A DNA stretch of 20,250 nucleotides from Nitrosospira sp. (GTDB lineage Bacteria > Pseudomonadota > Gammaproteobacteria > Burkholderiales > Nitrosomonadaceae): assembly GCA_030453055.1 (NCBI GenBank), contig JAKDLC010000005.1, positions 1-20,250 of the forward strand, in the 5' to 3' direction. A model generated the notes under the pieces. The model did not search any database and was not told the DNA's origin. It saw nothing but the letters and a program-made list of their open reading frames with translations. Position 1 is the stretch's first letter. Each line of letters opens with the position of its first letter. The translations under genes and the position numbers were made by a program. Shown here piece after piece: positions 4,451 to 16,649 of the stretch.

Positions 4451-4525
4451 GGGCGGTTAACTCAGCGGTAGAGTGCCACCTTCACACGGTGGAAGCCACT
4501 GGTTCGATCCCAGTACCGCCCACCA
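4451..4525 (+). tRNA. tRNA-Val (anticodon CAC)
   Basis: The 75-nt sequence begins GGGCGGTTAACTCAGCGG. The acceptor stem GGGCGGT/ACCGCCC pairs perfectly, the anticodon stem CCACC/GGTGG encloses the loop TTCACAC with anticodon CAC, and the T arm CTGGTTCGATCCCAG is intact. CCA is encoded. It is the last housekeeping gene before the putative defence operon; I found no second copy of its 3' end further right that would mark an integrated island. Confidence 0.96.
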
Positions 4526-4986
4526 AAAAATAGTCCTACCCGGGCGGCTAAATGATTTATGGTTCTACATTCATTCCACTGCCTTTTGCCTTTTGCCTTT
4601 TGCCTTTTGCCTTTTGCCTTTTGCCTTTTGCCTTTTGCCAATTGAATTAGCATAAAAAAGCCTGGCGGCCGCCAGTACTTCGGTCGTTCGAGAAAAATTC
4701 AGTCAGTGAGCGCACCACGTTTGGCAAAATACCTTATTAGCATGGTGTTTGGCGAATGACGAAAAACGAACCGGCGGAGTGGTAGCGGACCTATGTGTTC
4801 GCTCCTTGAGAAAAATAGCCTCAACTATTTTGATAGTGCGCCGTACTTTAATACATTACGGTATTTTGGCATTCAAGGCCGTCCGGTGAAGAACGCCAAA
4901 ACCACTATGCTGAAATCGGGCCGAAAACCGAGCTATGCGTATCCCTGGATGGAAACAAAATGTGAATGCGTAGCAGAGGGAAACGA
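4526..4986. other. Region between tRNA-Val and the defence operon
   Basis: It contains the heptamer repeat, a 14-bp perfect palindrome CTGGCGGCCGCCAG (4662-4675), and two small inverted repeats in AT-rich DNA: AAAATAG/CTATTTT at 4812-4831 and AATAC/GTATT at 4850-4865. These could be operators or part of the operon promoter. No convincing -35/-10 pair was found. A 65-codon frame at 4793-4990 is listed separately. Confidence 0.4.
4581..4639. repeat. Heptanucleotide tandem repeat (GCCTTTT), 8.4 copies
   Basis: Eight perfect consecutive copies of GCCTTTT (4581-4636) plus a final GCC. Perfect short tandem repeats of this kind change copy number by slippage. It lies between tRNA-Val and the operon starting at 4987, outside any credible gene. 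Confidence 0.95.
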
Positions 4987-4990
4987 ATGA
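4793..4990 (+). CDS. Possible small leader ORF, unrecognised
   Basis: A 65-codon frame (MCSLLEKNSLNYFDSAPYFN and onward) ends in TGA at 4988-4990, overlapping the helicase ATG at 4987 as ATGA, the geometry of translational coupling. There is no good ribosome binding site before 4793, and I recognise no family. It may be a chance open frame or a degraded antitoxin/regulator. Only the coupling makes it worth recording. Confidence 0.2.
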   Translation: MCSLLEKNSLNYFDSAPYFNTLRYFGIQGRPVKNAKTTMLKSGRKPSYAYPWMETKCECVAEGNE

Positions 4991-7900
4991 CAATAAAAAC
5001 TATTGCAAATAGCCACGGTATTCGTGATAACCATGGGCGCGGCAAAGTAGCGGATTTCCTGGTCGAAAAAATATCGAACGACAGCGTTCTATCTGTCGTG
5101 TCGGCCTATTTCACTATTTACGCTTACGAGGCTTTGGCAGACCAACTCGACCGCGTCGAGACCGTGCGCTTCCTGTTTGGCGAACCGCGCTTCATTGCGA
5201 CGCTTGATCCGGAAAAGACCGACAAGAAATCCTTCAAGATTGAAGATGAGGGACTCGAACTCTCTAACCGGCTACAACAGAAACAAATCGCCCGGCGGTG
5301 CGCAGCCTGGATTCAGGCCAAAGTCGAGATCCGCTCGATCCGCCAGGCTAATCTGCTCCATGGCAAGCTTTATCACATCCACGATGGGCACCGCGAGCAT
5401 GCCATTCTTGGTAGCTCCAATTTCACCCGCCGAGGGCTTGGACTATCCATCTCTCCCAACATAGAACTCAATCTGATCGTCGATAGCGACCGGGACCGCG
5501 CCGATCTCAGGGACTGGTTTGAAGACATCTGGGCTGACGACAAATTCGTCGCCGATGTCAAAGAAGAGGTGCTGCGCTACCTCGCGCAGCTTTATGTCGA
5601 TCACTCTCCTGAATTCATTTATTTCAAGACGCTATTTCACGTCTTTGAGCGCTTTCTGTCAGAGCAAGCCGATGATGCACGCTTATTCGATCAAACTGCA
5701 ATCGTCGATACGGAAATCTGGAAGGTGCTATTTGACTTCCAGAAGGACGGAGCCAAAGGGGCCATACACAAGATTAATTCGCACAATGGCTGCGTCCTCG
5801 CGGACAGCGTGGGACTGGGAAAAACCTACTCCGCGCTTGCGGTAATAAAATACTATGAGCTACGCAACCACCGCGTGCTTGTTCTTTGTCCAAAGAAGCT
5901 GCGCGACAACTGGACAGTGTATCTCGCACAGAACAACAGTGAGTTGAATCCCTTCCTACGGGATCGCTTCGCCTATACAGTGCTCTCCCACACCGACTTA
6001 TCCCGTGAGAGCGGAAAAGTGGACGGCGTTGACCTTGCCACCCTGAACTGGGGAAATTTCGATCTTATCGTCATTGACGAGTCCCATAATTTTCGTAACA
6101 ACGTGAAGGGTAAACGCGACGAGGACGGTAAAGTCGTCCGCAAGAGCCGCTATGAGCGGCTGATGGAAGACATCATCCAATCCGGCGTCAAAACCAAGGT
6201 GATGCTGCTCTCCGCCACGCCGGTAAACAACGATCTCAAGGATTTACGCAACCAGATGTATATTGTTACAGAAGGACATGATGCCGTATTCTCGCAAAGC
6301 CTGGGCATTCGCAGTATTAAAGATACTCTCTCCACCGCCCAAAGAACCTTCATGGAATGGGCCAAGCGCACCGGTGAAAAGGATACCAAGGAGTTGATGG
6401 ATCGGCTACCCGCTGGTTTCTTCACTCTGCTTGACGAACTCACCATCGCGGGTTCGCGCAAACACATAAAGCGCTACTATCACGCCTCGCTGGCAGTCAT
6501 CGGTCAATTTCCGAAGCGTGCCAAGCCTCAGTCGATTTACGCCGACATAGACACCAAGCATCGCTTCCCCACCTATGATCGGCTGAATCAGGAAATTGAA
6601 AAATACAAGCTTTCTCTGTTCAAGCCATCTGAATATGTATTGCCGCGGTTCAAGCACCTTTACACCGGGGAAAGCATTATCAAGAACTTCAGCCAGGAAA
6701 AACGTGAGGATTTCCTTATTGGCATGATGAAAGTCAATTTCCTTAAACGCCTGGAGAGTTCCGTGCGTTCTTTCGCCATTACCATGGATCGCACCGTCAG
6801 AAAGCTCGAAGATCTGGAAGCACGTATCGGCAAGTTCCAGGAGTTGTGCGATGCCAAAGTACAGGAATTGCAACCGGAACTGTTCGTCATGGAGGCGGAA
6901 GAAGACGAGGAGCTGCGCGAGGCCTTTGAGGTCGGAACGCTCAAATACCGTCTGGAGCACATGGACGTTGACCGATGGCTAGCGGATTTGACCAGCGACA
7001 AGCAACAGCTATCCATGCTTGCGGAAAGCGCCGACGGCGTAACCGCCGAGCGCGATGCGAAACTCACTGAACTGAAAAAGATCATCGAACACAAGGTGAG
7101 GAACCCCAGCACGAATAACCTGGGGGACGAGAATCGCAAGATCATAGTCTTCTGCGCCTTCGCCGACACTGCGGCATACCTCTATGAAGAGATCGAAGGC
7201 TGGGCGCGCGATAGATTGGGCGTTCACGTTGCGCTGGTTTCCGGCGGCGCTAAGCCCAACCGCACCACCTTCGGCCAGGCAGATTTCAGCCAGATACTCA
7301 CCAACTTCGCTCCGCGCGCAAAGCAGCGAGCAAAAATGAAATCCATGCCCCAGGAAGACGAGATCGATATCCTGATCGCCACGGATTGCATCTCCGAAGG
7401 CCAGAATCTTCAGGACTGTGATCTGCTGGTGAACTACGACATTCACTGGAACCCGGTGCGCATCATTCAGCGCTTCGGCCGGATCGATCGTATCGGCAGC
7501 GAGAACAAGGAAATCCAGCTCATCAATTTCTGGCCGACACCCGACCTCAACAAATACATCAACCTTAAAAATCGGGTCGAGGCACGCATGGCGCTCGTGG
7601 ATATCGCCGCCACTGCCGAAGACAATATCTTGCAGGCCGAGGACTTGAAGGAACTGATTCAGGAAGACCTGCGTTACCGCGACAAGCAATTGCTACGCCT
7701 CAAGGACGAGGTGCTCGATCTGGAGGATTTCAATGAATCGGTCGCCCTCAACGAATTTACCCTCGACGATTTCCGCATGGAACTCGCGGCCTACATCGAA
7801 GCCAACCGTGAGAAGCTCGAACAGGCGCCATTTGGCCTCTATGCCATCGTGCCGCCACCTGCCAAATACCAAACGATCAAGCCCGGCGTGATTTACTGCC

Positions 7901-8307
7901 TCAAGCAGCGCACCGACGCCAGCGGAAGCGAAACCGTGAATCCCCTGCAGCCTTATTTCCTGGTCTATATCCGAGACGATGGCGAAGTACGCTACAACTT
8001 CACCAGTCCGAAACAGGTGCTCGAAATCTTCCGGGCAGTCAGCCAGGGAAAAGCCGAGCCCTACGGCGAACTGTGTGAACTCTTCGATTCCGAAACGAGG
8101 AACGGCGAGGATATGAGCCAATACAGCGGCTTGCTGGACCGTGCCGTTAGCGCCATCGCCGCGCAGTTCGAGCGAAAGAATGCGGGTAACCTTTTTTCCG
8201 GACGTGGCGGCAAGCTCATCGACGCGGGCAAGCATGTCAAATCCACCTGCGACTTTGAACTCATCACCTGGCTGGTGATCAAGGACAAGAACGATGCCCG
8301 GCTATGA
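4987..8307 (+). CDS. PLD-nuclease/SNF2-family helicase fusion
   Basis: This 1106-residue protein joins two domains. The N-terminal ~190 residues resemble a phospholipase D-type nuclease: HGK at 125-127, then ILGSSNFTRRGLG, a single HKD half that would work as a dimer, as in NgoFVII/BfiI-like enzymes. The SF2/SNF2 motor follows: Walker A VGLGKT (275-280), DESH box (364-367), SATPV (from 409), ATDCISEGQNLQ (from about 798) and motif VI QRFGRIDRIG (from 828). The C-terminal ~250 residues are unassigned. I chose ATG 4987 over 4966 because AGAGGG (4975-4980) lies six bases before it. The stop overlaps the methyltransferase start by 14 bases, so the two are co-translated. The likely role is ATP-driven DNA translocation and cleavage in a restriction-like system; cleavage is inferred. 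Confidence 0.85.
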   Translation: MTIKTIANSHGIRDNHGRGKVADFLVEKISNDSVLSVVSAYFTIYAYEALADQLDRVETVRFLFGEPRFIATLDPEKTDKKSFKIEDEGLELSNRLQQKQIARRCAAWIQAKVEIRSIRQANLLHGKLYHIHDGHREHAILGSSNFTRRGLGLSISPNIELNLIVDSDRDRADLRDWFEDIWADDKFVADVKEEVLRYLAQLYVDHSPEFIYFKTLFHVFERFLSEQADDARLFDQTAIVDTEIWKVLFDFQKDGAKGAIHKINSHNGCVLADSVGLGKTYSALAVIKYYELRNHRVLVLCPKKLRDNWTVYLAQNNSELNPFLRDRFAYTVLSHTDLSRESGKVDGVDLATLNWGNFDLIVIDESHNFRNNVKGKRDEDGKVVRKSRYERLMEDIIQSGVKTKVMLLSATPVNNDLKDLRNQMYIVTEGHDAVFSQSLGIRSIKDTLSTAQRTFMEWAKRTGEKDTKELMDRLPAGFFTLLDELTIAGSRKHIKRYYHASLAVIGQFPKRAKPQSIYADIDTKHRFPTYDRLNQEIEKYKLSLFKPSEYVLPRFKHLYTGESIIKNFSQEKREDFLIGMMKVNFLKRLESSVRSFAITMDRTVRKLEDLEARIGKFQELCDAKVQELQPELFVMEAEEDEELREAFEVGTLKYRLEHMDVDRWLADLTSDKQQLSMLAESADGVTAERDAKLTELKKIIEHKVRNPSTNNLGDENRKIIVFCAFADTAAYLYEEIEGWARDRLGVHVALVSGGAKPNRTTFGQADFSQILTNFAPRAKQRAKMKSMPQEDEIDILIATDCISEGQNLQDCDLLVNYDIHWNPVRIIQRFGRIDRIGSENKEIQLINFWPTPDLNKYINLKNRVEARMALVDIAATAEDNILQAEDLKELIQEDLRYRDKQLLRLKDEVLDLEDFNESVALNEFTLDDFRMELAAYIEANREKLEQAPFGLYAIVPPPAKYQTIKPGVIYCLKQRTDASGSETVNPLQPYFLVYIRDDGEVRYNFTSPKQVLEIFRAVSQGKAEPYGELCELFDSETRNGEDMSQYSGLLDRAVSAIAAQFERKNAGNLFSGRGGKLIDAGKHVKSTCDFELITWLVIKDKNDARL

Positions 8308-11300
8308 CATCGAGCGCCGCAAAGCGATACAGGTCGCGCTAAAAGCATTTGCCAACGCACCGGTTAGCACTGCCTCTGTCAAGCTGCTGAATTCGCTGGG
8401 CTACGCCAGCAAGAAGACCACTGATCTCGGCAACAGCGCGGAAACGCTTCTACGGAACATCGAGCAGTTCAAGCCGGAGCTTGGCGTCATCAGCAGGGAC
8501 AAGGTCAAGGCCAGCCTCTGGAAATCCTGCACCTTTCTCTTCCAGTTGACCAATGACGAGATTCCTTCTCTCGCCATAGGGCAAATGCCCCTGGGTGCCG
8601 ACAACAAAGTCGCCCGCACCCAGATCGAGTCCCTCGTGTTTCTCGCTATCGACCTGCAAGGAGATAGCTGGACCCGCACCGATCTGGCAGCGATTACCCG
8701 TGAATTGAACAAGCGTTTCCCTATGCCGGCCATTTTCCTGTTCCGGCATGAAAGCCTTTTTTCACTCGCGGTCATCGACCGGCGCCAGAATTTGCGCGAT
8801 GGCAATCGTGATGTGATCGAGAGCCGCATTACGATTATCAAGGACGTGCGCTTCAAAAAACCACACCAAGCCCATGTTCGTATCCTTGAGGAACTCGCCA
8901 TTGATGGTTTGCTTGAACGGCGACCCAACAGCTTCGGGGAACTTTATGAAGCCTGGGTTGCGGTTGTCTCGACACAGAAACTCAACAAACGCTTCTATGG
9001 CGAACTTGCCAACTGGTATTTCTGGGCGATCCAAACTATCCGCTTTCCAGATGGCGGCGGAGAAAGCGAAGAGATGCGGAACGCGACTGGTGTCATTCGC
9101 CTTATCACTCGCCTAATGTTCATCTGGTTCATTAAGGAGCGCGATCTCGTCCCTACAGCGCTTTTTGATCTGTGCAGCCTTGGCGCGATTCTCAAAGGTA
9201 ATCCAGTGGAAACACCCGAAGAATCCCATTATTACAAAGCCATCCTGCAAAATCTGTTCTTCGCTACGCTGAACATCAGCATGGGCGAGAAGCGTCGTTT
9301 TCGCGGCAAGAACAAGTCCAGAGGGCAGGACAGCCATTTCTGCGTTCACAATATTTATCGCTACGAGGGGTTTTTTCGTTCGCCCGAGGAGGCTCTAAAA
9401 CTGTTCAAGGATGTTCCTTTCCTGAATGGCGGCTTATTCGAATGTCTGGATAAACCGGTCGAGGCGAACGGCCGCACTACTTGCGTTCGCGTTGATGGTT
9501 TCTCGGATCGGCCGGACAACCCCCTGCATGTGCCCAACAAACTTTTCTTCTCGGATGAATTGGCGATAGATCTCAACGACGTGTTCGGCACGCGGGGCAA
9601 GACCTACAAGACACGGGGACTTATACAGATTCTGGACAGCTACAAGTTTACGATCGACGAAAACACGCCTGTCGAAGAGGAAGTGGCGCTTGACCCAGAA
9701 TTGCTTGGCAAGGTGTTCGAAAACCTGTTGGCTTCTTACAATCCGGAAACGACCACCACCGCCCGGAAGCAGACCGGATCGTTCTACACTCCGCGCGAGA
9801 TCGTCGACTACATGGTTGACGAGTCCTTGCTGTTGCATCTTGGCATGGCGCTTGAGTCTGCATCGTCTCCGTCCGCCACCGCGACCGACAGGCTCCTCTC
9901 CTTGCTTTCTTACTCTCACGAACCGCACAGGTTCAATGAAGCTGAGATTGCGGTCCTGATTTCAGCAATCGACGGCATAAAAGTACTAGACCCCGCCTGC
10001 GGTTCGGGCGCCTTCCCGATGGGAATGCTTCAAAAGCTCGTCCATGTTCTGGGCAAGCTTGATCCGGGCAACCAGGAGTGGAAGAGTCGTCAGACGGCTC
10101 GTGTCGACAAACTCATGCGGGAGGCCGAAGGAATTGAGGACAGCGCCATCCGGGAGCACGTAATGACCGACTTAGCCACCCAACACGATAATATCGAGGA
10201 AGCCTTCGGGTTCAATATGCTCGATTATGGACGCAAGCTGTATCTCATCGAAAACTGCATCTACGGCGTTGACATCCAACCCATCGCCGTCCAGATCGCC
10301 AAGCTGCGCTTTTTCATTTCTCTGATCGTTAATGAGACCATTGCCGCCAACCGACCAAATCGAGGCATCCGCCCACTGCCAAACCTCGAAACGAAGTTCG
10401 TCGTCGCCAATAGTCTGATTGACATTGAACGGCCTGTCCAAGCGATGCTCAGTACCCACGAACTGGAAATCAAGCAGATCGAGCGCGAACTCAAGCGAGT
10501 GCGTGAACGCTACTTCCATGCCCGCACCCAGGAGACGAAGGACAAATTCCGAGCCGAGGACAAGATCCTACGCACCAAGTTAGGTGTTTTATTGGTTCAG
10601 GATGGCTTTCTGCCCGGTGTAGCGAGCAAACTGGCGGCCTGGGATCCCTACGATCAGGGTAGTGCCGCGCCATTCTTCGATCCGCAATGGATGTTCGAGC
10701 TACGCGATGGCTTCGACATCGTCATCGGCAACCCGCCCTATCTGCGCGTGCAGGGCCTACAGCAAACTCAGCCAGATTTCATTGCACTGTATCGCGAGCG
10801 CTTCCAATCCGCGAAAGGCAGCTTCGATATTTACGCGCTGTTTGTCGAGCGAGGTTATGAACTACTCGACCAGAATGGGCAACTGACCTACATCTTGCCG
10901 CACAAGTTCTTCCAGGCCTCTTTTGGTGTGGGGTTACGTAAGCTACTGACAGAGCGCAAGGCACTCCGTGAAATCGTGCGTTTCGGCGCCGAGCAAGTCT
11001 TCGATGAGGCCACAACTTACACTTGCCTGCTTTTTCTCACGGCGCAACCGCAAGCAACGTTCGACATGCTGGAAGTGCGCAGTCTGGAAAAAGGCGAGGA
11101 AGTTCTGCTCGCCGCCCGGAGTCGCCGCGACCATCCCGACTACGGGCACGATAAGCTGAATGCCCCCACTAGCGACGACTGGGATTTCACGCTAGGAGAG
11201 AACAACAAGGTCATGCAGCGGCTTAAACAGCATTCGCGCACCTTGGGAGATATTACCCGCAAGATTTTTGTCGGCCTTCAGACCAGCGCAGACAAGATAT

Positions 11301-12265
11301 ACGTGCTCAAACTGATGCGGGACGAGGGCGACATACTGCGCTGTTATTCGAAACAACTCGATGCGGAATTCGAGATCGAACGCGGTCTGACACGCCCCTT
11401 CCTAATGGGCAAGGACGTGCATCGTTATGAACCGGCACGACCGGGCAACGTGGTGCTCTTCCCTTATTGGATACGCAACGGTCGGGCTATACTGATGAGT
11501 CAGGCTGAAATCCAGCAGCAGTTTCCCCTGGGATGGAAGTACCTTTTGAAATCTCGGGCCTTTCTAGCTGTGCGAGAGCATGGTCGCTTCGCCGATGAGT
11601 GGTGGGCATATGGTCGACCGCAAAACCTAAATGAGTTCGAAGCAGTCAAGTTGATGACTCCGGACATTTGCGCACGTCCCGAACTAACGCTTGATGCCAC
11701 CGGTGATCTATACCACACCACCACACTATACAGTTTTGTGTTCAAGCCAGAGGTCAACGGAAGTCCGTACTATTTCCTGGGTCTGCTCAACTCCAAGGTC
11801 ATCTGGTACTTTATCACGGTGACGGGAACGCCGTTGCGCGGCGATTTCTATCGGTTCAAGACCGAGTACCTGCGCCCCTTTCCAATACCGGATAGCACCC
11901 CTGAGCATCAAGGCCTGATCGAGATACTGGTGGGCTATGTGCTCGCTCTGAAACACGAAGCGGCCAACGTGGCCGACACGCCTCCACGGCTCGCGGTAAT
12001 GAACGCATGGTTCGAGCAGTTGATCGATGCGCTGGTGTATGAGTTGTACTTCCCGGAAGAGTTTTCGTCAGTGGAGGCACGTGTCAGCGCCGCGCTCAAA
12101 GCGGTTAGGATGGTGCCGCTAGACGATCTTGCGATAGCGGCAGCTCCAACTCAAGCGCTTTCTTCGTTGTTCGACACGCTGCACGATCCGAATCATTCGG
12201 TTCGGCGGGCGGCCTTTTTCATCGACACCATTCCGTCGGTACGGGTCATTGAAGGCAAAGATTGA
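8294..12265 (+). CDS. Eco57I/type IIG-like adenine DNA methyltransferase with specificity domain
   Basis: The 1323-residue protein has the layout of large Eco57I-type methyltransferases. An N-terminal ~500-residue region with LITRLMFIWFIKERDLVP and PFLNGGLFECLD leads to ARKQTGSFYTPREIVDYMVDE. SAM motif I DPACGSGAFPMG (from 566), YGVDIQPIAVQIAKLR, and catalytic motif IV NPPY (from 813) mark an N6-adenine methylase. The C-terminal ~350 residues include LTRPFLMGKDVHRYEP, YYFLGLLNSK and FYRFKTEYLRPFPIP, typical of TaqI-like target-recognition domains. I see no clear PD-(D/E)XK nuclease motif at the N-terminus, so cleavage is more likely assigned to the helicase partner. ATG 8294 overlaps the helicase gene; AAGGAC at 8281-8286 is its ribosome binding site. 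Family certain; target sequence unknown. Confidence 0.92.
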   Translation: MPGYDIERRKAIQVALKAFANAPVSTASVKLLNSLGYASKKTTDLGNSAETLLRNIEQFKPELGVISRDKVKASLWKSCTFLFQLTNDEIPSLAIGQMPLGADNKVARTQIESLVFLAIDLQGDSWTRTDLAAITRELNKRFPMPAIFLFRHESLFSLAVIDRRQNLRDGNRDVIESRITIIKDVRFKKPHQAHVRILEELAIDGLLERRPNSFGELYEAWVAVVSTQKLNKRFYGELANWYFWAIQTIRFPDGGGESEEMRNATGVIRLITRLMFIWFIKERDLVPTALFDLCSLGAILKGNPVETPEESHYYKAILQNLFFATLNISMGEKRRFRGKNKSRGQDSHFCVHNIYRYEGFFRSPEEALKLFKDVPFLNGGLFECLDKPVEANGRTTCVRVDGFSDRPDNPLHVPNKLFFSDELAIDLNDVFGTRGKTYKTRGLIQILDSYKFTIDENTPVEEEVALDPELLGKVFENLLASYNPETTTTARKQTGSFYTPREIVDYMVDESLLLHLGMALESASSPSATATDRLLSLLSYSHEPHRFNEAEIAVLISAIDGIKVLDPACGSGAFPMGMLQKLVHVLGKLDPGNQEWKSRQTARVDKLMREAEGIEDSAIREHVMTDLATQHDNIEEAFGFNMLDYGRKLYLIENCIYGVDIQPIAVQIAKLRFFISLIVNETIAANRPNRGIRPLPNLETKFVVANSLIDIERPVQAMLSTHELEIKQIERELKRVRERYFHARTQETKDKFRAEDKILRTKLGVLLVQDGFLPGVASKLAAWDPYDQGSAAPFFDPQWMFELRDGFDIVIGNPPYLRVQGLQQTQPDFIALYRERFQSAKGSFDIYALFVERGYELLDQNGQLTYILPHKFFQASFGVGLRKLLTERKALREIVRFGAEQVFDEATTYTCLLFLTAQPQATFDMLEVRSLEKGEEVLLAARSRRDHPDYGHDKLNAPTSDDWDFTLGENNKVMQRLKQHSRTLGDITRKIFVGLQTSADKIYVLKLMRDEGDILRCYSKQLDAEFEIERGLTRPFLMGKDVHRYEPARPGNVVLFPYWIRNGRAILMSQAEIQQQFPLGWKYLLKSRAFLAVREHGRFADEWWAYGRPQNLNEFEAVKLMTPDICARPELTLDATGDLYHTTTLYSFVFKPEVNGSPYYFLGLLNSKVIWYFITVTGTPLRGDFYRFKTEYLRPFPIPDSTPEHQGLIEILVGYVLALKHEAANVADTPPRLAVMNAWFEQLIDALVYELYFPEEFSSVEARVSAALKAVRMVPLDDLAIAAAPTQALSSLFDTLHDPNHSVRRAAFFIDTIPSVRVIEGKD

Positions 12266-12272
12266 CCCCGCC

Positions 12273-13724
12273 ATGCGTATCGAACGGATCGAGATCAAGG
12301 ATTTTCGTGGCTTCCCTGGAATCTACGAGCTCAAGCTGGGCCGTCCAGGTCATAACCTTCTTGTTTATGGCGAGAATGGTAGCGGCAAGTCGTCGCTGTT
12401 TCAGGCACTCCGGCTTTTTTTTGCCTCCAGTGAATTTACCGGCAGCATCCAGGAATATCGCAACGAGTTCACTAAGTCAGACGAGGTTCTGGTCAAACTG
12501 GAGCTTGTCGACTACGACGGCCAAGGCAATCGGGATCCGGCTTCCGGAACATTTGAATGGAGTCCCACTGCTTCGCCGCATGGGCAACCCCTGATTCAGG
12601 AAGCCAACAAAACCAAGGGATGTCTGGATTATCGAGCTTTGCTGGAAACCCATTATGTTCACCGTGACGAGGGAAAGGTTGAATTGTTCAAGCTCTTGGA
12701 AACTGTTGTTCTTGGCCACGTTGAGAACCCTATCTCCAAGAAGGCTTTCCGTACCGAGTTGGCAGAAATTCGTGACATGGTACGGAAAGATTGGCGCACG
12801 TGGAGTGAGGCTTTGGATTCTCGAAGTCGGAACTTTAACAAGGGTTTTGAAAATGTGCTGGATACAGTCGAGCAAAAGGCAAATGAGCTGCTTACTCGTT
12901 TTTTTCCGGACACCCAAATCCATCTCAAACCGACAGGGGCACTTGCCCGATCTGGCACTGGACGCAACAAGGGACTTATATTCCCCAAGGTGCATCTAGC
13001 CGCCACGTCCTTCGGACTCCATCGCGATGATCTGCACCACTTTCTCAACGAGGCCCGACTGTCGGCTATCGCAATATCGCTCTACCTAGCGTCCCTGCTG
13101 ATTGTTCCAGCCTCCAGACTACGACTGCTTGTATTGGACGATCTTTTAATCGGCATCGATATGTCGAACCGAATAGCGCTGCTCAACATCCTAAGGGAGG
13201 AGTTTAATGGTTGGCAGATCATCCTGCTGACTCACGACCGGGTTTGGTACGAAACCGTCCGCATGAGCACACTTTACGAAAAAACTTGGTGGTATGCCGC
13301 ATTGCATGCGGAAACATCTGCCGGCGGCGTGCCCACCCCGCTCTGGCGTGGGCACGAGGAGGGGTGGATAGACAATCTTGATCGTGCGCGGCAACACCTG
13401 GCCAACCATGACGACCGCGCCGCTGGAGTCTATGCCCGCGCTGCTTTCGAAGGCAAGCTCAAGAGCTACTGTGAGAAGAAGTCCGTTGCCGTACAGTTCA
13501 AGAATGATCCAGCGAAGATGACCACCGAGATGTTCTGGACGGCAATTAAGGGAAAATTGACAGGTCCTGAACTTGCTGAGATTAAGAAGCAGGTCGATGA
13601 CATCGAAATATACCGGAAGATTGTGTTGAATCCGTTGAGTCATGAGCATCCAACGACGCTCACTACTACGGAAATACAAGGGGCGATTACTGCAATCGAT
13701 GCACTCGACCAAGTGCTGAAATGA
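12273..13724 (+). CDS. RecF-like AAA/ABC ATPase of the defence operon
   Basis: The 483-residue protein opens with MRIERIEIKDFRGFPG, the canonical start of RecF/SMC-type ATPases, which is why I place the start here and not at the in-frame TTG 12249. Walker A GENGSGKSS lies at 33-41, a signature-like LNEARLSAIAISLYLA near 265, Walker B LLVLDDLLIGIDMSNR near 284-299, and the H-loop IILLTHDR soon after. Only about 250 residues separate the Walker motifs, so there is no long SMC coiled coil. The C-terminal ~150 residues are helical and end in EIYRKIVLNPLSHEHP; this tail is vaguely HEPN-like but its R-to-H spacing is too long. It starts 7 bases after the methyltransferase stop, so it belongs to the same operon, probably as a DNA-end or damage sensor or regulator. 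Confidence 0.85.
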   Translation: MRIERIEIKDFRGFPGIYELKLGRPGHNLLVYGENGSGKSSLFQALRLFFASSEFTGSIQEYRNEFTKSDEVLVKLELVDYDGQGNRDPASGTFEWSPTASPHGQPLIQEANKTKGCLDYRALLETHYVHRDEGKVELFKLLETVVLGHVENPISKKAFRTELAEIRDMVRKDWRTWSEALDSRSRNFNKGFENVLDTVEQKANELLTRFFPDTQIHLKPTGALARSGTGRNKGLIFPKVHLAATSFGLHRDDLHHFLNEARLSAIAISLYLASLLIVPASRLRLLVLDDLLIGIDMSNRIALLNILREEFNGWQIILLTHDRVWYETVRMSTLYEKTWWYAALHAETSAGGVPTPLWRGHEEGWIDNLDRARQHLANHDDRAAGVYARAAFEGKLKSYCEKKSVAVQFKNDPAKMTTEMFWTAIKGKLTGPELAEIKKQVDDIEIYRKIVLNPLSHEHPTTLTTTEIQGAITAIDALDQVLK

Positions 13725-14002: not shown

Positions 14003-14203
14003 ATGGGCTCAAAATTATCTACCACAAATTCCTATTTGCGCGATCCGAGCCTGCGTCAGAAAAGCGTCCTCAAATCCGTGGCAACCTCCTCGGCAATTGA
14101 GGGAATTCACGCGCCCTTCAAGGCTGCGTCTTTTACGCGCAAGACAGCCTCGTCCTCCCGTAAATCCAAGCCAGTATCGGCGGCACGCATCAAGCGCGCG
14201 TAA
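14003..14203 (+). CDS. Small protein with Fic-inhibitory-type motif
   Basis: A 66-residue basic protein: MGSKLSTTNSYLRDPSLRQK, then SVATSSAIEGIHAPF and a Lys/Ser/Arg-rich tail. SSAIEG fits the [S/T]xxxE[G/N] inhibitory-helix motif by which VbhA-type antitoxins block the ATP site of Fic enzymes. I recall small proteins of this pattern as uncharacterised hypotheticals beside toxin genes. It runs convergent to, and overlaps by 14 bases, the C-terminal end of the deleted Fic gene (14190-14585). The reading is therefore a Fic antitoxin whose toxin has been inactivated. The motif is short, so function is inference; the gene itself is moderately likely. Confidence 0.6.
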   Translation: MGSKLSTTNSYLRDPSLRQKSVLKSVATSSAIEGIHAPFKAASFTRKTASSSRKSKPVSAARIKRA

Positions 14204-14585
14204 GCCTGGCTTGGGATCGCAGCGTCCGGGCAATAACGCCTTTGAAAATTGCTGTCATCGGCGCATAGTTTGCCTCTAAAGCCGCATGGCTCGCACCGAT
14301 ATAGCGTCGCTTCTCCTCTCCGCGAATTCCGCCAAAGTCCAATACAGGCAACCCGGCCTGTAGACCCATAAGGAGCCGATGTATATGCCGGATGTCATCG
14401 GCATCGAAATGTTGACTCAGTTGCGTCTCATCAATTGCTCGTTCGGTTGCTTTATAGAGAGCCTCGGACTCAAGCTGTGCCATTTCTCGCACCGAACGTA
14501 TGCCGAGCAGATTGCGCAACACACGCCTCCGGGAACGGGGTTCAAACTCTCCCTCGGAACCCTGAATACTATACCGGTTACTCAT
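14190..14585 (-). pseudogene. Fic-family protein with catalytic core deleted in frame
   Basis: The 131-residue frame begins MSNRYSIQGSEGEFEPRSRR and continues VLRNLLGIRSVREMAQLESEAL and DADDIRHIHR, the N-terminus of cell-filamentation/Fic proteins of about 190-200 residues. It then jumps to LLMGLQAGLPVLDFGGIRGE and YAPMTAIFKGVIARTLRSQA, which is the C-terminus of the same family. The middle of roughly 65 residues, including WAGEYR and the active-site HPFxxGNGRxxR, is missing without loss of frame. AMPylation activity should be abolished. I start at codon MSNRY, not at the upstream ATG 14627, because the family begins there. It lies downstream of an RHH antitoxin and convergent to a small protein with an inhibitory-type motif. 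Confidence 0.75.
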
Positions 14586-14645
14586 ATAACTTTCTTTGGG
14601 GGTTTTTACGTTCCCAATCTCGAACATGTGGGCGAGAGGTAGATG

Positions 14646-14684
14646 TCAAAGGCGATCAGTCAAGTGGACTTCGCCTCTTACTAT
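14646..14684 (-). pseudogene. Possible MazF/PemK toxin stub
   Basis: Directly after the RHH antitoxin, and overlapping its stop, the minus strand reads IVRGEVHLTDRL and then a stop. VRGEV is the usual N-terminus of MazF/PemK RNase toxins, which normally follow such antitoxins with overlapping codons. The first codon is ATA, so a G-to-A change may have destroyed the start and at the same time created the antitoxin's TAG. The rest of the toxin is not seen. The match is only about a dozen residues, so this is tentative. Confidence 0.35.
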
Positions 14685-14920
14685 CCCGGCCATGCCGCCA
14701 GGTCCTCGGAAAGACCCTCCTCAGCAAGCGCCCGTTCAAAGGATGGGTCCAGCTTGGCGCATTCCGCCGCAAGACGGTTCTTCTCAAGGCGCTCAAGTTT
14801 TTCCTCGACCGCTTCATGAATGGCGCGGCTACGGTTTGGAAAGACATGCAGCCCGATCAGGCGATCGATTTTTTCCAAGGTTTTTTCTTCAAGGGTAATC
14901 ACGATTTTTGCTTTACTCAT
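14681..14920 (-). CDS. Ribbon-helix-helix antitoxin (CopG/MazE-like)
   Basis: A 79-residue protein starting MSKAKIVITLEEKTLEKIDR, with NRSRAIHEAVEEKLERLEK next. The short beta strand KIVITL followed by two helices is the RHH DNA-binding fold, and the acidic C-terminus (ECAKLDPSFERALAEEGLSE) is the kind of tail that wraps a MazF-type toxin. AAGGAG lies seven bases before this ATG, deciding it over an ATG 18 bases upstream. RHH antitoxins repress their own promoter; the palindromic arms at 14940-14960 cover the -10 box and are the likely operator. Its partner appears lost or reduced to a stub, so this is probably an orphan antitoxin. Confidence 0.8.
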   Translation of the reverse strand: MSKAKIVITLEEKTLEKIDRLIGLHVFPNRSRAIHEAVEEKLERLEKNRLAAECAKLDPSFERALAEEGLSEDLAAWPG

Positions 14921-14946
14921 GCATTTACTCCTTGGCATGACGATGT

Positions 14947-15061: not shown

Positions 15062-16405
15062 TTACACCGGTTTGATCAGCCACCGTTGTGTAGCGTTGTT
15101 TTGTACAGGCCGGGTAACGAGAGCAAAGTCCCTCTCTTCAATTTCATGTGCATCCATAAACCGGTCAGTGCTTTTTTGCTGGATGGTGAATGTGTCGTTG
15201 CCCGAGGGCGTTATTATCCATCTCTGGGCGTCGTTATTCTTTGCAGGACGCGTGACCAGCCTGAAGTCCTCATCCGAATCTTGATACGCGTCCACAAATC
15301 GGCTACCGCTCTTTTGCTGAATGGTGTATAGGCCGCCCATATATGGGCCGCTGAAGCGCGTCAACACCCATTTCTGGGTATCGTTATCCTGTGCAGGGCG
15401 CGTGACCAGCCCGAAGTCCTCCCCCGAGTGTTCATGCGCATCCACAAACCGGCCATTGCTCTGCTGCCGAATCGTAAACACGCCTCCCACGGGTATTAGA
15501 ATCCATTGCTGGGTGCGATTATTCTGTGCAGGGCGAGTAACCAGCCCGAAGTCCTCTCCCGAATGCTCATGCGCATCCACAAATCGGCCATTGCTCTGCT
15601 GCTGGATGGTGTACAGCCCCGGTTGCAAGATCAATGGAATCGAAAGAGGATACATGAAGTTGACAGCCAGAAGATCGTCGTTACTCAGGCCGCTTCTCTG
15701 GCCTATCGACTCACCATTCAGAGTCTCGATAGTGGGCTGGTCATTCTTCGAAAACGCGAATTCGCCATAATGCATTATCGACCCAAAATCATATCGGCCT
15801 ACATCGTCACCGTCGGTAATATGCTGGTTAAAGTTATGTTCCCTTCCTTCCTCGATATTCTCGAAAAGGATCCGTATGAAACGGTCCCGGTCTTCGCGGC
15901 TTTGCTCGTGCCAAAGACCGACGGCGTGGCCAATTTCATGAATCGTGCTGCCTTTGTTGCACCCCGAGGCCAGCGTAACGAACTGCTGTCCGATCCCTCG
16001 CATGCCAACCCACGACGAACATCCCTCTCCAGGCCTGAAGGTCACAAAGTTCTGCTCGCCGGTGCGGGGGATGAATCTGATACTCGTGCGGCTATGCCAA
16101 TGATCTATTGCGTCATCGACGCGCCCTTTGTCGGGGAGCTCGGGATCGATGGTGTAGGGTACGATACCGCCAGGCCAACGGAACTGCGTCCCGGTAATGA
16201 CGATGCCAAGGGGCTGTGTATGTTTTCCCTTGTTGATCTCAGCGACCAGCCGCTCCATTTCATTGATACTGCCCAACACGATGTCGCCCTCAAAGACGGC
16301 CTCACCGTCGATGACGCTGTATTGCACAGGACGGTATCCGAAGGTATTGCCTTTGACAAAACCTGTGCGCACTTCCGAGCTTGAACGAAACTCTTCTTTT
16401 GCCAT
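15062..16405 (-). CDS. Astacin-family (M12A) metalloprotease with four ricin-like repeats
   Basis: The 447-residue zinc protease carries the full astacin signature HEIGHAVGLWHEQSRED (zinc ligands H156, H160, H166; catalytic E157) and the Met-turn SIMHYGEF (M211, Y213). The mature domain probably begins near RWPGGIVPYTI, after a ~70-residue pro-region. Residues 264-447 hold four tandem ~45-residue repeats built on YTIQQQSNGRFVDAHEHSGE and ending in TQxW, like the QxW motifs of ricin-type beta-trefoil lectins, so carbohydrate binding is likely. No N-terminal signal peptide is visible. I chose MAKEEF because AAGGAGGG lies eight bases before it; an ATG two codons upstream is too close. Element B copy 2 sits immediately upstream and must carry its promoter or the read-through from the gene before it. 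Confidence 0.9.
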   Translation of the reverse strand: MAKEEFRSSSEVRTGFVKGNTFGYRPVQYSVIDGEAVFEGDIVLGSINEMERLVAEINKGKHTQPLGIVITGTQFRWPGGIVPYTIDPELPDKGRVDDAIDHWHSRTSIRFIPRTGEQNFVTFRPGEGCSSWVGMRGIGQQFVTLASGCNKGSTIHEIGHAVGLWHEQSREDRDRFIRILFENIEEGREHNFNQHITDGDDVGRYDFGSIMHYGEFAFSKNDQPTIETLNGESIGQRSGLSNDDLLAVNFMYPLSIPLILQPGLYTIQQQSNGRFVDAHEHSGEDFGLVTRPAQNNRTQQWILIPVGGVFTIRQQSNGRFVDAHEHSGEDFGLVTRPAQDNDTQKWVLTRFSGPYMGGLYTIQQKSGSRFVDAYQDSDEDFRLVTRPAKNNDAQRWIITPSGNDTFTIQQKSTDRFMDAHEIEERDFALVTRPVQNNATQRWLIKPV

Positions 16406-16426
16406 TTTCATACCCTCCTTAGTCTG

Positions 16427-16616
16427 GTGTAGTAAGTCAGAGATATCGTTACTTAAAAATGACTGGATTGCCACCATACCGCGCTGCTCGTCGTTGCATA
16501 TGAATAACTATGCGCCTCCTCGCGCCTTGTCTGACAACAATCCAGTCATTTTTAACATTCCTTCCCGGTTTATTCATTTGAATCGGTGAAGTAACGATAT
16601 CTCTGACTCACTACAC
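16427..16616. mobile_element. Palindromic element B, copy 2 (190 bp)
   Basis: Same length and plan as the copy at 2482-2671, roughly 90-95% identical by eye, with outer arms GTGTAGTAAGTCAGAGATAT and CTGACTCACTACAC and inner arms AATGACTGGATTG and CAATCCAGTCATT. Inner-arm differences from copy 1 are paired (A-to-G in one arm, T-to-C in the other). It lies between the YbaY-like gene and the protease, ending about eight bases before the protease ribosome binding site. No TA flanks are seen here, and TCTG precedes it as at 1987. Confidence 0.75.
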
Positions 16617-16649
16617 TTTGTAGTAAGTCAGAGATATCGTTACTTCACC
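16587..16649. repeat. Long hairpin formed by the end of element B and a third solo end
   Basis: The right end of copy 2 (16587-16615) is followed after three to four bases by its near-perfect inverted copy (16619-16649). This gives a ~30-bp stem with a tiny loop and one mismatch. It lies just past the 3' end of the YbaY-like gene and supplies that gene's stop codon. It could act as a transcription barrier or processing site between that gene and the protease. Confidence 0.7.

Follow-up and report, generated by a model that had tools for sequence, protein, structure and literature searches.

Gene-by-gene analysis of a 20,250-nucleotide stretch of a Nitrosospira sp. genome (GCA_030453055.1, contig JAKDLC010000005.1, positions 1 to 20,250; hereafter the window) identified a three-gene operon, here called A, B, and C, that encodes a nuclease-helicase, an adenine methylase, and an ABC ATPase with a HEPN-like C-terminal domain. 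The interpretation we favor, with moderate confidence, is that of a split ATP-dependent restriction-modification (R-M) system with a PrrC-like ribonuclease guard, the product of gene C, docked on the C-terminal tail of the methylase. All the parts belong to known types, as do PrrC-type guards; no system with this gene set was found in the libraries and papers searched. The three genes are as follows.

4987 to 8307, forward strand: gene A, PLD nuclease and SNF2 helicase, 1106 amino acids (aa), ATG at 4987
8294 to 12265, forward strand: gene B, N6-adenine methylase, 1323 aa
12273 to 13724, forward strand: gene C, ABC ATPase with a HEPN-like C-terminal domain, 483 aa

All three open reading frames are present with the overlap and spacing given in an initial annotation of this DNA: A and B share 14 bases (8294-8307), and the stop codon of B (12263-12265) is followed by 7 bases and the ATG of C at 12273. 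A GAGGG ribosome-binding-like sequence stands upstream of the ATG of A at 4987. A TTG at 12249 is a possible start of C, and the ATG at 12273 agrees with the start position in the family. The expected motifs are intact in A (HGK...GSSN, GLGKT, DESH, and QRFGRIDRIG), B (LDPACGSGAF and NPPY), and C (GENGSGKSS, LNEARLSA, and LLVLDD). A, B, and C are real, intact, and coupled genes. Sigma-70-like signals near the operon (5 against a shuffle mean of 7.2) and terminator-like signals (17 against 12.7) were uninformative.

An alignment of 29 relatives was used to search one genome per species for relatives of C, and the survey is a sample made up of the 80 best among 180 confirmed relatives (26-40% identity). 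The titles of these relatives name Poribacteria, Latescibacteria, cyanobacteria, Anaerolineae, Bacteroidota, Proteobacteria, Planctomycetes, Verrucomicrobia, Desulfobacterales, and others. Among loci with at least 9 kb on the side concerned, and with A and B each required to reach at least 100 bits, both genes lie upstream of C in 31 of 61, always in the order A-B-C (31/31); B stands without A in 9/61, and neither is found in 21/61. The downstream side, used as a control, holds B in 0/55 loci and A in 1/55 (L062). The A-B-C association therefore exceeds chance, and the ordered co-occurrence that the initial annotation had left to a neighborhood survey is borne out. The A proteins of the 31 loci fall into a close group of 13 (at least 900 bits) and a distant group of 18 (104-388 bits). 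In IMG/VR, A-B-C is present in two of four matches (L137 and L138), a third (L136) has B-C at a contig end, and the fourth covers only 50 residues.

Co-evolution resolves this association into two pairs. We compared 27 operons (the window, locus L103, and 25 loci of the C survey), retaining those with A and B of at least 100 bits, a B N-terminus of at least 40 bits, C of at least 200 bits, and a B-C gap of at most 400 bases. The tail was defined as the last 100 residues of B and the target-recognition domain (TRD) segment as the preceding 300 residues; the measure was the rank correlation of pairwise identities, assessed by Mantel and partial Mantel tests with 2000 permutations. Such permutations leave shared ancestry in, and the contrast between partners serves as the control. 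Correlations were high for A with the B core (0.79) and for the tail with C (0.73), against 0.26 for A-C, 0.26 for TRD-C, 0.29 for B core-C, and 0.20 for TRD-tail. Within the 12 operons with a close A, the values were 0.84 for tail-C, 0.50 for B core-C, and 0.47 for TRD-C. The partial tests gave 0.70 for tail-C and 0.77 for A-B core (0/2000 permutations each), compared with 0.17 for TRD-C (50/2000), -0.01 for B core-C (1155/2000), and 0.05 for A-C given the B core (458/2000).

Two natural swaps show the same partition. The window and L103, a locus of the same genus, share 92.6% identity in A, and similarity of their DNA ends at 8291, with B at 43.5% (21% in the TRD segment) and C at 36.2%; the cassette after A has therefore been swapped. 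The loci L039 and L076 share 97% identity in A and 89% in the B core, against 24% in the TRD, 30% in the tail, and 30% in C. Co-evolution and the two swaps together thus indicate that A travels with the B core and the tail with C, and the TRD, the tail, and C can move as a cassette. If the favored interpretation is right, such swapping suggests how specificity changes while motor and guard stay matched. The earlier proposal of the trio as one restriction unit agrees with the conserved co-occurrence and needs correction in that C belongs with the C-terminal tail of B and not with the whole trio.

The product of C is composed of two parts, with these features.

12273 to 13307, forward strand: ABC/RecF/Rad50-type ATPase head (Walker A at 12369, signature at 13044, Walker B at 13125)
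13356 to 13721, forward strand: HEPN-like (DUF4145/Abi_C-like) domain, from profile comparisons and conserved residues
within 13437 to 13451, forward strand: residues R389 and E393
within 13629 to 13643, forward strand: residues S456 and H457

The head resembles Rad50/SMC, and C as a whole matches 11 Pfam families at E≤0.01, including SMC_N, AAA_15, and AAA_21; the best PADLOC match, mad3, is weak (51 bits). The label "RecF-like" given in the initial annotation suits this N-terminal part. The C-terminal HEPN-like domain had been overlooked, and its PrrC/RloC-like residue set is at odds with a generic RecF-like component. This domain (residues ~362-483) matches DUF4145 in 5 of 13 members scanned (E≤1, best 8e-4). 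In hhalign comparisons, it matched an alignment of three Abi_C proteins with a probability of 82.7 (E 9.5e-6), and two unrelated control alignments gave 0.2; a precomputed Abi_C match is present on 2 of 120 listed C homologues. Across 114 C sequences, gaps set aside, R389 is conserved in 113/113, E393 in 113/113, and H457 in 111/111, with a serine directly before the histidine column in 100/111. Identity reaches at least 99% in 23 columns; the ATPase part accounts for 20 of them and the C-terminal domain for exactly three, namely R389, E393, and H457.

DUF4145 is counted as a HEPN domain, and most HEPN domains have a ribonuclease active site (PMC3710099). The PrrC triad is Arg320-Glu324-His356, and the RloC motif is Arg-X3-Glu-X36-52-His, "where Ser often precedes His"; replacement of any one of the three RloC residues by alanine abolishes cleavage (PMC2610378). 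The motif of C, Arg389-x3-Glu393-x63-(Ser)His457, suggests that its near-invariant residues follow the triad pattern of these anticodon nucleases. C shares with PrrC and RloC an ABC ATPase head (Walker A, signature, and Walker B, with the Rad50/SMC matches noted above). Its C-terminal HEPN-like domain resembles theirs in the pattern Arg-x3-Glu-xn-(Ser)His, with a larger n, and, like PrrC with the type Ic R-M enzyme EcoprrI, it is encoded beside a putative R-M enzyme. It differs from PrrC in its link to an Eco57I-type methylase and a PLD-SNF2 helicase instead of HsdMSR, and from RloC in being 483 aa long without a long insert, where RloC has a zinc-hook coiled coil. The ABC signature of the RloC-like proteins compared here is LSEGE, against LNEARLSA in C.

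Several observations weigh against this assignment. The C-terminal domain of the window's own C has no Pfam match to DUF4145 or HEPN at E≤1. In the hhalign comparisons, the DUF4145 alignment gave a probability of only 19.6 (E 1.2e-3), and the Abi_C alignment spans only the first half of the domain, histidine excluded. The Glu-His spacing of 63 lies beyond that of PrrC (31) and RloC (36-52). R448, near the usual place of the arginine in the HEPN Rx4-6H motif, is present in 82 of 114 sequences only and is thus not invariant. When the domain was shuffled 20000 times, the bare Arg-Glu-His motif arose in 133 cases, and comparison with four RloC-like (AAA_13) proteins gave a probability of 0.1, with no detectable profile similarity. 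The longer spacing, the variable R448, the shuffle hits, and the missing RloC profile match are why we term C "PrrC-like" and not "a PrrC".

Restriction-modification by A and B is proposed because of their families (PLD nuclease, SNF2 motor, and N6 methylase). B would methylate adenine within a site read by its TaqI_C domain, and A would dock via the DUF4391-like N-terminus of B as restriction motor and nuclease, its SNF2 engine pumping unmodified DNA and its dimerized PLD domain cutting it. C would dock on the C-terminal tail of B, beside the recognition domain, as a PrrC-like guard whose ABC ATPase keeps the HEPN-like ribonuclease inactive for as long as the complex holds together. Inhibition of the complex, or much unmodified DNA, would release the ribonuclease, the target of which would most likely be tRNA. 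That C senses a disabled complex and then cuts tRNA is proposed by analogy with PrrC, which its linked R-M enzyme keeps silent (PMC2610378) and which an anti-restriction peptide releases (PMC2610378, PMC3710099). We infer the docking of C on the tail from sequence co-evolution, its sole basis; every step beyond this attachment is likewise an inference, as are methylation, DNA pumping and cutting, ribonuclease activity, the tRNA target, the trigger, and phage defense.

The strongest competitor, which we judge unlikely but still a serious contender, is that C is a nonnucleolytic DNA-sensing or clamp ATPase of the RecF/Rad50 kind that helps B to find or verify sites or loads A, its HEPN-like domain merely binding RNA or protein. 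The Rad50/SMC resemblance of the head is in line with this, as is the proposal that Dnd/CxC-type ABC ATPases are DNA scanners (PMC10853773); moreover, the C-terminal domain is tied to proven ribonucleases at the motif level only. For a scaffold, however, it would be unexpected that the domain's only columns with at least 99% identity are the Arg-Glu-His set.

The proposed docking surfaces and the enzymatic parts of B are placed as follows.

8504 to 8971, forward strand: DUF4391-like N-terminal domain (residues 71-226), proposed dock for A
9986 and 10730, forward strand: methylase motif I and NPPY, respectively, from the motif check
10253 to 11002, forward strand: Eco57I methylase domain (residues 654-903; Pfam PF07669, E 3.6e-38)
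11399 to 11887, forward strand: TaqI_C target-recognition domain (residues 1036-1198; Pfam PF12950, E 5.1e-9)
12035 to 12262, forward strand: conserved C-terminal tail (VYELYF ... HSVRR ... SVRVIEG), proposed dock for C

Pfam identifies Eco57I, N6_Mtase, and TaqI_C on B, and NPPY is present in 25 of 27 aligned operons. A recognition domain and tail also usually end the gene preceding C in other loci. We scanned the last 420 residues (all if shorter) of 80 proteins, that is, window B and 79 genes directly upstream of C in the C-anchored survey loci and L091-L093. Left out were the host copies L006 and L007, the second fragments of C genes that are split (L064, L071, and L091), L066, L078 (only 96 aa upstream), and loci without an upstream frame near C (L019, L038, L040, and L074). 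TaqI_C was matched at E≤0.01 in 65 of the 80, and among the nonmatches are BRO, GmrSD, and helicase genes that separate B from C or immediately precede C. The tail form VYELYF...HPVR...VRIIEG was found by a loose pattern in 51/80, whatever the N-terminus, and the start of C often overlaps the stop of the tailed gene by 4 bases. A control set of 14 TaqI_C genes in 13 of 249 genomes contained two with the tail, both followed by C, and 12 without it, where C was found in 0/12 within a fetched flank of up to 1.5 kb (85 bases downstream in L110 and 488 bases in L107). Only the negatives of this control are independent, because both positives helped to build the tail profile. Among the genes near C, L054 has a BRO-N gene (9057-10001; Pfam) in the B-C interval or immediately ahead of C, L067 a gene (8361-9311) resembling it by C-terminal sequence, and L056 a GmrSD-type restriction gene (463-2316) before C.

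Gene A encodes a single-HKD PLD nuclease joined to an SNF2 helicase; the fusion stated in the initial annotation holds, with PLDc_2, SNF2-rel_dom, and Helicase_C all on A in Pfam.

5095 to 5532, forward strand: PLDc_2 nuclease domain (residues 37-182; Pfam PF13091, E 3.8e-11)
5359 and 5410, forward strand: HGK and GSSN, respectively, from the motif check
5740 to 7497, forward strand: SNF2-type ATPase/helicase core (SNF2 residues 252-421, Helicase_C residues 714-837; Pfam)

HxK and GSSN are invariant in 27/27 aligned A proteins, and the aspartate after HxK occurs in just 15/27. The PADLOC family C3a139 "HKD+Snf2" (PDLC01075) matches A over nearly its full length (433 bits, residues 28-1097). 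On plasmids, cousins of A occur in 152 records, with 39.8-43.8% identity over the whole length in the 40 of these that were listed. They were read at seven places, six annotated (L094-L096 and L098-L100) and one unannotated (L097). In 6/6 annotated loci, A is followed by DUF4391 and a methyltransferase (separated by one hypothetical gene in L095), the type III-like Mod is separate in 6/6, a Res-like helicase is present in 5/6, and L097 has a DUF4391 match too. These PLD-SNF2 - DUF4391 - Mod operons span very different hosts, with one archaeon among them. They are type III R-M-like and resemble the window operon in the whole-length homology of A and in a DUF4391 related to the N-terminus of B; they differ in having DUF4391 and Mod as separate genes, their own Res-like helicase, and no annotated C.

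A survey anchored on A covered 23 copies outside the host genome, a broken copy (G463) and G327 (no locus) being left out. A DUF4391-like domain lies within ~430 bases after A in 23/23 copies, as a separate gene in 21/23 and as the N-terminus of B in 2/23; one stop codon interrupts the match in L147. Residues 71-226 of B match an alignment of six plasmid DUF4391 proteins (hhalign probability 93.9, E 1.5e-7), and Pfam alone gives E 0.015 for window B and 5e-4 for the L024 methylase. DUF4391 is likely an adaptor for A, fused into B here, because all 23 copies of A precede such a domain and hhalign links it to B. In the same survey, A occurs without C in 21/23 copies, which counts against an exclusive A-B-C association.

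It is conceivable, though we consider it improbable, that A and B form an ordinary R-M pair, a split Type ISP-like system, to which C is a loosely linked and mechanistically unimportant accessory. Type ISP enzymes (LlaGI-like) unite a translocase, an Eco57I-like methylase, a recognition domain, and an Mrr-like nuclease in one polypeptide, and are expected to pump DNA before cutting; here, these functions are split into genes, the nuclease is of the PLD type, and there is an extra ATPase. The strong A-B core covariation (0.79), the cousins of A that operate with a DUF4391-Mod set and no C, and the plasmid counts (A in 152 records, C relatives in one of 72,556 records) are consistent with such a pair. 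Against it, the B tail covaries with C (0.70 in the partial Mantel test), C stands beside 2/2 tailed and 0/12 tail-less TaqI_C proteins (two flanks being short), and B-C pairs lie in tandem in L060 and L062.

The tailed recognition domain also occurs apart from B's methylase core. We chose 23 upstream genes (C survey and L093) for matching only the C-terminal part of B. TaqI_C is present in 23/23, which is little beyond the selection itself, and TPR repeats are present in 18/23. In eight loci (L012, L014, L015, L017, L025, L026, L029, and L032), the TaqI_C protein has a TIR-like domain, found in phmmer searches that used the L012, L017, and L025 N-termini as queries and confirmed by Pfam TIR_2 in L012 and L017. 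These TIR-TaqI_C proteins lie directly upstream of the C-family ATPase in Poribacteria/Latescibacteria. No B-type methylase, the only kind sought, was found within 7.5 kb upstream in 7/8 TIR loci, and the eighth (L014) has only 4.9 kb of upstream sequence. The TIR loci show that the C module is not tied to restriction, a further point against the favored interpretation. A Nostoc plasmid carries a stand-alone TaqI_C protein together with C. In four TPR loci (L024, L027, L031, and L035), a tail-less methylase stands upstream of a TPR-TaqI_C-tail protein. The idea that methylase and sensor of one locus read the same site found no support, as by similarity of C-terminal segments the locus's own sensor ranks 9, 10, 12, and 1 of 17.

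We tentatively raise, as a possibility with somewhat less than even prospects, that C and a tailed recognition domain constitute a general transferable alarm, in which sequence-specific DNA reading is coupled via the docking tail to an ABC ATPase with a PrrC-like tRNA nuclease, on at least two effector chassis. One chassis would be the PLD-SNF2/methylase enzymes and the other the TIR-TPR-TaqI_C proteins without a B-type methylase nearby, which are possibly NAD depleting. If so, a PrrC-like guard would exist beyond type I systems, and the signal by which it docks could be read from the sequence. If our favored interpretation is correct, the PrrC principle, a suicide ribonuclease silenced by the restriction enzyme it guards, would extend to a widespread non-type-I family and also to TIR proteins using restriction-type recognition domains. 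The predicted docking tail would make the guard hypothesis amenable to simple truncation tests.

Comparison with named systems covered 9 window open reading frames in PADLOC and Pfam and 8 in NCBIfam, with the best 25 of 50 (A), 74 (B), and 88 (C) PADLOC families considered. None was fully matched. The initial annotation knew of no named system with exactly this gene set, which holds as to full matches; as labels, the same three components, helicase, methylase, and ATPase, describe Hma (PMC8565338). The Hma ATPase is called DUF499, and Type-2 BR systems add DUF3780 and an HKD-SNF2 helicase (PMC12839542). The likeness to these systems extends to the trio and to the HKD nuclease on the Type-2 helicase, whereas the ATPase here is an ABC ATPase with a HEPN-like domain. 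DUF499 is not among the 11 Pfam families matched by C at E≤0.01, and the operon is for this reason not Hma; the match of A to HmaA (PDLC00659; 91 bits, best stretch 655-911) is far below that to "HKD+Snf2" (433 bits). The CxC-ABC (PbeABCD) systems likewise combine HKD and an SF2 helicase with an ABC ATPase, and differ in having DndE along with a small protein, a coiled-coil CxC hook, and in some cases cytosine methylases (PMC10853773), none of which was seen in the operon. C scores 23 bits with PbeC over 50 residues, A scores 36 bits with PbeA (residues 112-312), and the scanned open reading frames have no match to DndE or DUF3780. Membership in the Hma/DUF499-centered BR or the Pbe systems, despite the same coarse parts (HKD-SNF2 helicase, methylase, and ATPase; PMC8565338, PMC12839542, PMC10853773), is hence highly implausible for a 483-aa ABC ATPase without DUF499 and with such weak Pbe matches.

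Other candidates were rejected as well. For DISARM, A matches DrmD at 158 bits against a cut-off of 610, and a 73-bit DrmA hit falls on helicase A itself; for BREX, B matches PglX at 68 bits against a cut-off of 400. The lack of their partners noted in the initial annotation was seen again, with no separate DrmA/DrmB gene and no PglZ/BrxC among the 9 open reading frames (best 25 PADLOC matches each). A Type IIG R-M enzyme was rejected on the N-terminus of B, which is DUF4391-like where a nuclease domain would be expected; within B residues 1-520, the best stretches of type IIG models lie at 429-516. The operon was not found in the available portions of the literature on the gene set, DUF4391, PrrC/RloC, and TIR/TaqI_C/ABC, nor in those of PMC8565338, PMC12839542, PMC10273834, PMC3710099, PMC10853773, PMC2292703, and PMC2610378, and we do not claim a first description.

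Among the host's relatives, the system is rare and patchy: C (E≤1e-20) occurs in 2 of 398 phylum-sample genomes and 2 of 61 relatives, with the host genome counted in each. In the one congeneric genome with the system, a phage-integrase-like gene, judged by sequence reading, lies nearby (L103). The tandem loci L060 and L062 have the arrangement B-C-B-C, as if specificity cassettes were stacked. A second A-B pair is found in the host genome on contig C423 (L101, 7301 bases; A 63% and B 42% identical over the matched part), interrupted by the contig ends, so that any C would lie beyond them. Another three-gene set, on contig C357 (L102, 394-8588), consists of an A-like helicase (139 bits), a protein with weak similarity to B (42 bits), and a 497-aa gene that resembles a Schlafen/AlbA_2 protein at its start.

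Around the operon, a tRNA-Val gene lies upstream at 4451-4525, followed at 4580-4639, between it and the operon, by a perfect 7-nucleotide tandem repeat (TGCCTTT, 8.6 copies). Two 194-nucleotide repeats (2479-2672 and 16424-16617), 93% identical and resembling miniature inverted-repeat transposable elements with near-perfect inverted ends (~29 nucleotides), bracket ~14 kb including the operon. Downstream on the reverse strand are a 145-aa gene (14190-14627) with a PADLOC PDC-S04 match in its first part only and an 85-aa RHH protein (14681-14938). A DUF3800 gene at 1081-1839 has a weak PADLOC PDC-M04A match, and the reverse-strand gene at 15062-16477 encodes an Astacin metalloprotease fused to ricin-B-type lectin repeats (four 135-nucleotide repeats).

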